Positions 2,739-11,869 of a stretch of DNA of 64,000 nt are shown here, piece after piece. The translations under genes and the position numbers were made by a program. Under the pieces are notes generated by a model. It was not told where the DNA came from. It saw only the letters and a program-made list of their open reading frames with translations, and did no database searches. Within the stretch, counting starts at the first letter, position 1, and the number at the start of each line of letters is the position of its first letter. Source of the stretch: Darksidea phi (lineage: Eukaryota > Ascomycota > Dothideomycetes > Pleosporales > Lentitheciaceae); assembly GCA_030770425.1 (NCBI GenBank), contig JASJFT010000058.1:62001-126000 (forward strand), given 5' to 3'.

Positions 2739-3585
2739 GCTTCTTTCCGATGTACCCGCCTTGAACGCGCCTTTGGGAAATGGGCACCTCTGCAATGTTC
2801 ATTCGCATACTAGACGTTAAACGGATTTTTATGCCTTTGATATGGGGTGTATACTTTTGCAAAGAATACGCATGCCTCGGCGTACGATGCTGATGATAGT
2901 CTACCCCTCTCTAGGCGAGACAGCCCCACATTGAGGGACTCAACAAGCACTCCTGCCCCACTACCCTCAGAACCCATTGAGGCCATCAGGCCCTCAAGCC
3001 TCACGGTCGCTCTCTTGTAACTTTGTAGTCGGGTTGTGTGTCGCTAGGTGGAAGAGCGTGGAGTACCTCGTCATGTGCTACGGACGGCGATGGGTGCCTG
3101 GGGCATCTCTAAATTCAGTGCTCTAAAGTTTGGATCTTGTGAGACGTTCCATGGGGTTGATTTTCTGTTGATAAAACTGCGTGGTGAGTTGCAGCACGAG
3201 GCGCGTTGCCGTGAGCGATTTCTGCGCAACCTCATCCGGCTGAGCAGCTCAACCAAGCCTTGGGATTGAAAGCGCGAACTGCTTCGGACATGCAAAAGCC
3301 ATCTCGAATGCGACTCTCGTGTAAAATGTCAGCGTTCGGATATTGTGGCACACTGTCCAATCTCGCTTCGAAAGCAGCCATTCATGTCGCAATTCCTCGT
3401 CCCACAACCATGCCCATGGCGTGGCTAGCCGACCAAATAAGAGTCATTGCCTTCTTTGCCCACCGCAGATATCCCGATCCATTCGTCTACTGCGTAGCGT
3501 CTTGCTTCGTCTTTTGATGCCGTTATTTACTATTTAACCGAGGAAAAGTATTTAAAACTGCTCAAAATCAATCGAGCCTGACGCT
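2739..3585. other. intergenic region between SDR and tRNA
   Basis: It contains only short antiparallel open frames. It should hold the SDR promoter and the 5' flank of the tRNA gene. No other element was recognised. Confidence 0.5.
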
Positions 3586-3593
3586 GTCTCAGT

Positions 3594-3603
3594 GGCGCAA
3601 TGG
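3594..3603 (+). promoter_or_regulatory. tRNA A box, abutting intron 1
   Basis: The sequence GGCGCAATGG, preceded by T at 3593, matches the internal Pol III A box (TRGYNNARNNGG). It ends exactly where the first GT-AG segment begins. This leaves the A box essentially intact while the rest of the D arm is displaced. Confidence 0.6.
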
Positions 3604-3748
3604 GTAAGTCTGATCAGCACAGCACGCTCTAAGTTCCTACTAACTCCGCCACAGTAGCGGTACGTTTCAACACCATCACATCTATGTGATACACATACTA
3701 ATTGGCCTCAAGCGTTGGACTTCTACAATCATGTGATCCAAAGGCTGT

Positions 3749-3759
3749 GGGTTCGAGCC
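3749..3759 (+). promoter_or_regulatory. tRNA B box
   Basis: The sequence GGGTTCGAGCC in the T arm matches the Pol III B box (GGTTCGANNCC). It lies about 145 bases after the A box instead of the usual 30-60 because of the introns. Confidence 0.75.
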
Positions 3760-3775
3760 CCACCTGAGATGCATC

Positions 3776-3780
3776 TTTTT
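3776..3780 (+). terminator. Pol III oligo-T terminator
   Basis: A T5 run begins six bases after the tRNA 3' end, the usual RNA polymerase III stop signal. Confidence 0.65.

Positions 3781-10297: not shown

Positions 10298-11869
<1,572 letters not shown>

Follow-up and report, generated by a model that had tools for sequence, protein, structure and literature searches.

Many nuclear tRNA genes of this genome very probably contain short U2-type introns, which would be transcribed by Pol III together with their host genes and removed by the spliceosome. We found 14 nuclear tRNA genes with 16 inserts of the mRNA type at 13 tRNA positions, which is to be read as at least 14 genes and not as a full census. 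One of them, a tRNA-Arg(UCU) gene with two such inserts in the D arm, lies in the window, i.e. the whole 64,000-nt stretch of DNA that was analysed (positions 62001-126000 of contig C432, from an assembly of 51,351,393 bases in 477 contigs). It is likely that the isoacceptors Arg(UCU), Arg(ACG), Val(CAC), Lys(UUU), Leu(UAG), Glu(UUC) and perhaps Leu(CAA) exist only as spliceosome-dependent genes, often with the tRNA endonuclease acting on the same precursor. Decoding would in that case require the spliceosomal processing of Pol III transcripts, which would constitute a second, unrecorded route of nuclear tRNA splicing.

The tRNA-Arg(UCU) locus had been noticed in a preliminary description, which placed two GT-AG segments with TACTAAC and TACTAAT branch motifs in the D arm. 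Both segments have exactly the sequence claimed. As also proposed there, their removal restores a complete cloverleaf with the D stem GCGC/GCGC, and ARAGORN identifies the spliced sequence as tRNA-Arg(tct) with a score of 112.7. From the unspliced locus ARAGORN returned no gene, and a scan of the whole window with bacterial settings gave none at this place either. The spliced RNA, with its complete cloverleaf and the anticodon UCU, is predicted to be a functional tRNA. Two details of the preliminary description had to be amended. It located the gene correctly but ended it at 3770, one base before the discriminator base, and it overlooked that the anticodon loop contains an ordinary intron of 10 nt. 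The best reading of this locus, supported by its sequence, is a nuclear tRNA-Arg(UCU) gene that carries two putative mRNA-type introns. The features of the locus and the interrupted genes found elsewhere in the genome are listed in the table.

Table. Features of the tRNA-Arg(UCU) locus, mRNA intron used for comparison (both in window coordinates) and further interrupted tRNA genes of the genome (L, locus; C, contig).
Feature	Position or locus	Strand	Remarks and basis
Nuclear tRNA-Arg(UCU) gene with a total of three introns	3586..3771	+	sequence, ARAGORN
TATA-like element TATTTAAA, upstream of tRNA-Arg(UCU)	3549..3556	+	no exact TATAWA match
Exon 1, tRNA positions 1-19	3586..3603	+	acceptor 5' strand, start of D arm; numbering by hand
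A box TGGCGCAATGG	3593..3603	+	whole despite intron 1; by reading
Putative mRNA-type intron 1, 51 nt	3604..3654	+	GTAAGT...CACAG, between positions 19 and 20
Branch motif TACTAAC of intron 1	3638..3644	+	likely branch A 3643, 11 nt before intron end
Exon 2, 5 nt, TAGCG	3655..3659	+	positions 20-24
Putative mRNA-type intron 2, 53 nt	3660..3712	+	GTACGT...TCAAG, between positions 24 and 25
Branch motif TACTAAT of intron 2	3696..3702	+	likely branch A 3701, 11 nt before intron end
Exon 3	3713..3771	+	holds anticodon TCT (3722-3724) and ordinary intron
Ordinary 10-nt anticodon-loop intron CAATCATGTG	3726..3735	+	tRNA endonuclease type, not GT-AG, position 37/38; ARAGORN
B box GGTTCGAGCCC	3750..3760	+	whole, after intron 2; B-box search
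Discriminator base, unpaired	3771	+	by reading
TTTTT, Pol III terminator-like run	3776..3780	+	3' of gene
mRNA intron of NADP-glutamate dehydrogenase (GDH), 52 nt	11335..11386	-	GTAAGT, CTAAC (A 9 nt from end), TAG; spliced protein alignment
Arg(ACG)	L084, L085 (both C9), L090 (C124)		one insert each
Val(CAC)	L086		one insert, position 20/21
Ala(AGC)	L087		one insert, position 52/53
Leu(CAA)	L088, C85:54318 region	-	two inserts, 34/35 and 49/50; anticodon-loop intron of about 28 nt
Ile(AAU)	L092		one insert, position 25/26
Leu(UAG)	L093		one insert, position 9/10
Glu(CUC)	L096, L102		one insert each, position 52/53
Lys(UUU)	L101		one insert, position 28/29
Glu(UUC)	L103		one insert, position 51/52
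Leu(AAG)	L118, C34:4417-4501 region	-	GC-AG insert, D loop, position 15/16; from branch-motif search

The 16 inserts measure 47-57 nt with a median of 51 nt. All of them end in AG, and 15 begin with GT while the remaining one begins with GC (GCAAGT). Position 5 is G in every insert and the last exon base is G in 13 of the 16. A YTRAY motif whose branch A lies 9-12 nt from the intron end is present throughout; 15 inserts match the stricter CTRAY, the exception being the Lys(UUU) insert with TTTAAC. Judged by their ends, 5' splice site, branch motif and size, the inserts can be classed as putative U2-type spliceosomal introns. The preliminary description had likened the two Arg(UCU) inserts in size to the mRNA introns of the window, and the GDH intron bears this out with nearly the same length and the same signals. 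It is the one mRNA intron of the window proven by protein alignment, the others being intron-like segments. A 270-aa piece of the GDH shares 95% identity with its closest named match, from Lentithecium fluviatile (Massarineae), and 96% with a metagenome protein. As L. fluviatile is a pleosporalean ascomycete, we assign the fungus to Pleosporales. An attempt to list further mRNA introns of the window de novo from open-frame rules gave too much noise and was dropped.

Random insertions or misread boundaries might resemble introns by chance, particularly since up to four registers are available at some junctions and a favourable one could be picked. Each insert has one to four registers that yield the identical spliced RNA, and every time a GT-AG or GC-AG register is among them. 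However, the combination of GT-AG ends with a CTRAY motif whose A precedes the segment end by 9-12 nt occurred in only 17 of 400,000 random window segments of 45-60 nt, whereas 14 of the 15 tRNA inserts recorded by then obeyed the same rule. Among the GT..AG segments of 45-60 nt in the window, 93 of 7,315 (1.3%) contain the branch motif. The boundaries are moreover fixed independently by intron-free paralogs: Glu(CUC) L094 aligns with L096 and L102, Ile(AAU) L011 with L092, Ala(AGC) L042 with L087, and a Leu paralog (L045) with the Leu(UAG) gene. The comparison of Leu(AAG) L049, which has no insert, with L118 gives the boundary of the GC-AG insert. For practical purposes, a chance resemblance is thereby refuted.

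When every possible excision at 17 loci was scored with ARAGORN, the result was too permissive to define boundaries, as often hundreds of matches per locus were returned and GT-AG was not always ranked first. The boundaries were therefore taken from the paralog alignments and register counts. Applied to the genes as they stand, ARAGORN recognised six of the 14 unspliced and two of these with the assigned anticodon (Ala(AGC) and Lys(UUU)), by taking the insert for an anticodon-loop intron. After splicing, 13 of the 14 were recognised, ten of them with the assigned anticodon. The other three, two Arg(ACG) genes and Ala(AGC), were given a different anticodon, which also happens for some uninterrupted genes. 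The Arg(ACG) gene L090 has a mismatched acceptor stem and was not recognised even when spliced. By reading, Leu(CAA) has one U-U mismatch in the anticodon stem.

The introns are mutually unrelated except for those of two Arg(ACG) copies and are therefore not recently copied from a single element. At an E value of 0.001 the Arg(UCU) locus matched only itself in the assembly, and no introner-like copies of its introns were found. No Rfam family, including those for group I or II ribozyme cores, exceeded its gathering score in the window, and inserts of 51 and 53 nt are too short for a self-splicing intron of either group. The two related introns, which are 96% identical, belong to L084 and L085. 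These genes lie about 14.6 kb apart on opposite strands of C9 with similar flanks, and they appear to have arisen by a duplication in which the intron was copied as well.

An intron-blind search of the genome for a B box with a T run behind it returned 84 rows, compared with 41 for the reversed-pattern control; a single locus may yield several rows. This search accounts for 13 of the 14 interrupted genes (15 inserts), namely the gene of the window and 12 further ones that were fetched and read. Because its starting pattern was GGTTCGANNCC, it would miss introns located within the B box. At position 52/53 the last G of the intron serves as the initial G of the B box, and GGTTCGA is thereby whole in the DNA. 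A branch-motif search and a further pattern search were noisy, as was the B-box search (30 against 27 and 114 against 177 rows for the reversed-pattern controls). From these two, 11 candidate places among the matches listed were fetched, and only the one on C34 (L118) proved to be a tRNA gene by reading. A search with the B-box variant GGTTCAA (25 rows, control 20), inspected by eye, revealed no new interrupted gene. It contained one known nuclear tRNA, a Thr(UGU) by reading, on C129. In the same searches 36 uninterrupted nuclear tRNA genes were seen, an incomplete count composed of 30 of 50 covariance-model matches and six from the B-box search; the covariance model scored only 63 of 1,735 candidates. 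Set aside from the 50 were 18 matches in contigs that appear to be of mitochondrial type (C304, C417, C382) and two that ARAGORN did not recognise (C51, C119).

Several places were not counted because they are fragments or contain no tRNA by reading (L089, L095, L097, L104, L109-L117). L089 (C103:35481 region) is the 3' fragment of a tRNA-Ile lacking the 5' half. In addition, two copies of a tRNA-like gene with an encoded CCA end, one of them decayed, were seen at L100 (C425:82656 region) and L091 (C158:13011 region). Their anticodon is GGA by reading; ARAGORN reports L100 as Arg cct and does not recognise L091. We take these genes to be bacterial- or plastid-like in look, and they are outside the nuclear tRNA count.

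The inserts are scattered over the cloverleaf. In Arg(ACG) they occupy position 30/31 in two copies and 45/46, in the variable loop, in L090, and the first mRNA-type intron of Leu(CAA) splits the anticodon (C/AA). By hand numbering, none of the 16 is located at the canonical site 37/38. A separate anticodon-loop intron was found in ten of the 13 genes that ARAGORN recognised after splicing, and such precursors would be processed by two splicing systems. The same coincidence could be quoted for a different origin, in which the inserts would be non-canonical tRNA introns whose bulge-helix-bulge (BHB) motifs serve as cutting sites of the tRNA endonuclease. Their positions in the D, anticodon and T arms are indeed alike in kind to those in tRNA-Ile(UAU) of Cyanidioschyzon merolae (accessible part of PMC9602550). 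A BHB, however, requires neither GT-AG ends nor a branch site, whereas all 16 inserts have splice ends and keep their branch motif at a constant distance. The 4-bp central helix of a BHB was not found in any of the 16 even in the best register, and three of the four pairs in six, by a simplified test that had no positive control. At the annotated sites of 15 inserts, the mean pairing was 1.6 pairs compared with 1.7 in mismatched exon-intron controls. Hence, cutting at BHB motifs is very improbable, and the spliceosomal reading is preferred.

The preliminary description had called for a search for an intron-free tRNA-Arg(UCU) and for other tRNA genes interrupted by GT-AG inserts. No intron-free gene was found in the 51.35-Mb assembly, and 13 more interrupted genes have come to light in the same genome so far, one of them with a GC-AG insert. 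Both outcomes favour the reading proposed there. Besides Arg(UCU), intact copies of Arg(ACG), Val(CAC), Lys(UUU), Leu(UAG) and Glu(UUC) were not found either, where the status as sole copies is only as good as the assembly. These six isoacceptors bear on the question of whether the genes might be dead tRNA copies with intron-like DNA inside, which are never spliced while other genes supply the tRNAs. Short insertions in the D or T arm of eukaryotic tRNA genes are usually taken as marks of pseudogenes, as in the accessible part of a 2014 review of tRNA introns, where the word spliceosome does not occur (PMC4090602). Two of our Arg(ACG)-like loci, L090 (C124) and L099 (C423), have damaged 5' halves and look decayed, although the intron of L090 is still good. 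On the other hand, the cloverleafs are mostly otherwise intact, promoters and terminators are present, and dead inserts would not retain splice signals in 16 of 16 cases. AGA codons are in use as well, with 6 of 1,427 and 5 of 700 codons in two stop-to-stop open reading frames with Pfam domains, and 0 of 436 in GDH. It is thus unlikely, to a high degree, that the genes are dead, and we regard them as probably spliced and in use.

A T run of at least four begins no more than 13 nt past the gene end in all 13 genes checked. Nine of the 13, the gene of the window not among them, have an exact upstream TATAWA, compared with 1.35% of random window stretches. These features argue against a further explanation, namely that the tRNAs are embedded in longer Pol II transcripts, spliced like an mRNA or lncRNA, from which the tRNA is released later. 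Such an arrangement would account for the encounter of the spliceosome with these RNAs, but Pol III-like T runs directly after the genes, upstream TATAWA elements and introns that are all free of TTTT speak against it; we consider it very unlikely. By shuffling, TTTT would be expected in 3.4 of 15 introns (P 0.0125, 15 introns). The avoidance of T runs as a proof of Pol III transcription was dropped as weak, since the intron-like segments of the window mostly lack TTTT too.

We propose that short U2-type spliceosomal introns entered many nuclear tRNA genes at scattered sites of the cloverleaf. Pol III would transcribe these genes from the internal A and B boxes, which in the genes found so far are whole or nearly so in the DNA despite the introns. 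The spliceosome would recognise GTAAGT, the YTRAY branch site and AG, and would join the tRNA exons before or during end trimming. Where present, the intron at 37/38 would be removed separately by tRNA endonuclease and ligase. For tRNA-Arg(UCU), two spliceosomal steps around the 5-nt exon would rebuild the D arm, and translation would need this splicing. Counted against spliceosomal removal are the very short exons, with 5 nt in Arg(UCU) and 9 nt plus leader in Leu(UAG), and the fact that Pol III transcripts are uncapped. If confirmed, the spliceosome would act on Pol III RNAs that are uncapped and very short and whose exons measure 5-9 nt. The requirements of the spliceosome for a cap, for exon length and for Pol II could then be studied in a natural setting. 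Intron gains would then be datable, because paralogs with and without the intron share one genome. Furthermore, such genes can escape tRNA finders that allow for an intron in the anticodon loop alone, as eight of the 14 were not recognised by ARAGORN when unspliced. Consequently, more cases may be hidden in fungal genomes whose tRNA sets are incomplete.

The splicing of nuclear tRNAs is described as a process that does not depend on the spliceosome (accessible part of PMC13149111). The preliminary description knew of no spliceosomal intron in a nuclear tRNA gene, and our literature search, limited in reach, likewise gave no report of one. The canonical eukaryotic introns at 37/38 are present in the same genes, Arg(UCU) included, but differ from the inserts in having a single position, no GT-AG rule and a pathway of endonuclease and ligase. 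As far as the sources are accessible, the BHB introns of C. merolae, nucleomorphs and archaea resemble ours in that several tRNA introns occur in the D, anticodon and T arms (PMC4090602, PMC9602550). Those of C. merolae and archaea are cut at the BHB by the tRNA endonuclease (PMC4090602, PMC9602550) and need no splice or branch signals, in contrast to the inserts described here, in which the BHB central helix was not found.

Closer in kind are the spliceosomal introns of ascomycete nuclear rRNA, which are likewise short, of the mRNA type and outside mRNA. A 57-bp spliceosomal intron of lichen rDNA is removed from Pol I rRNA in yeast (accessible part of PMC8527467), and an 18S intron position class, Ple.18S1, extends across families of Pleosporales including Lentitheciaceae, but is not stated to be spliceosomal in the accessible part of that source (PMC11889510). 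An exact 18S motif gave no match in this genome. In contrast to the tRNA inserts, the rRNA introns reside in a long host RNA that is made by Pol I and is not a tRNA.

U6 snRNA is a Pol III RNA, and its gene in this genome (L125, C179:23388-23487) is uninterrupted, covering family positions 1-105 as one 100-nt piece. In other fungi, U6 snRNA and U3 snoRNA genes carry introns which share GT-AG ends, an RCTRAC branch site and a small structured host RNA with the inserts described here, and for U3, too, paralogs with and without the intron coexist (accessible part of PMC5832005). In that 2017 paper, as far as accessible, frequent interruption is said to be known, among small structured RNAs, for U3 and U6 alone, and tRNA is not included (PMC5832005). 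The present case differs from U6 and U3 in that the host is a tRNA and that many genes and many positions are interrupted.
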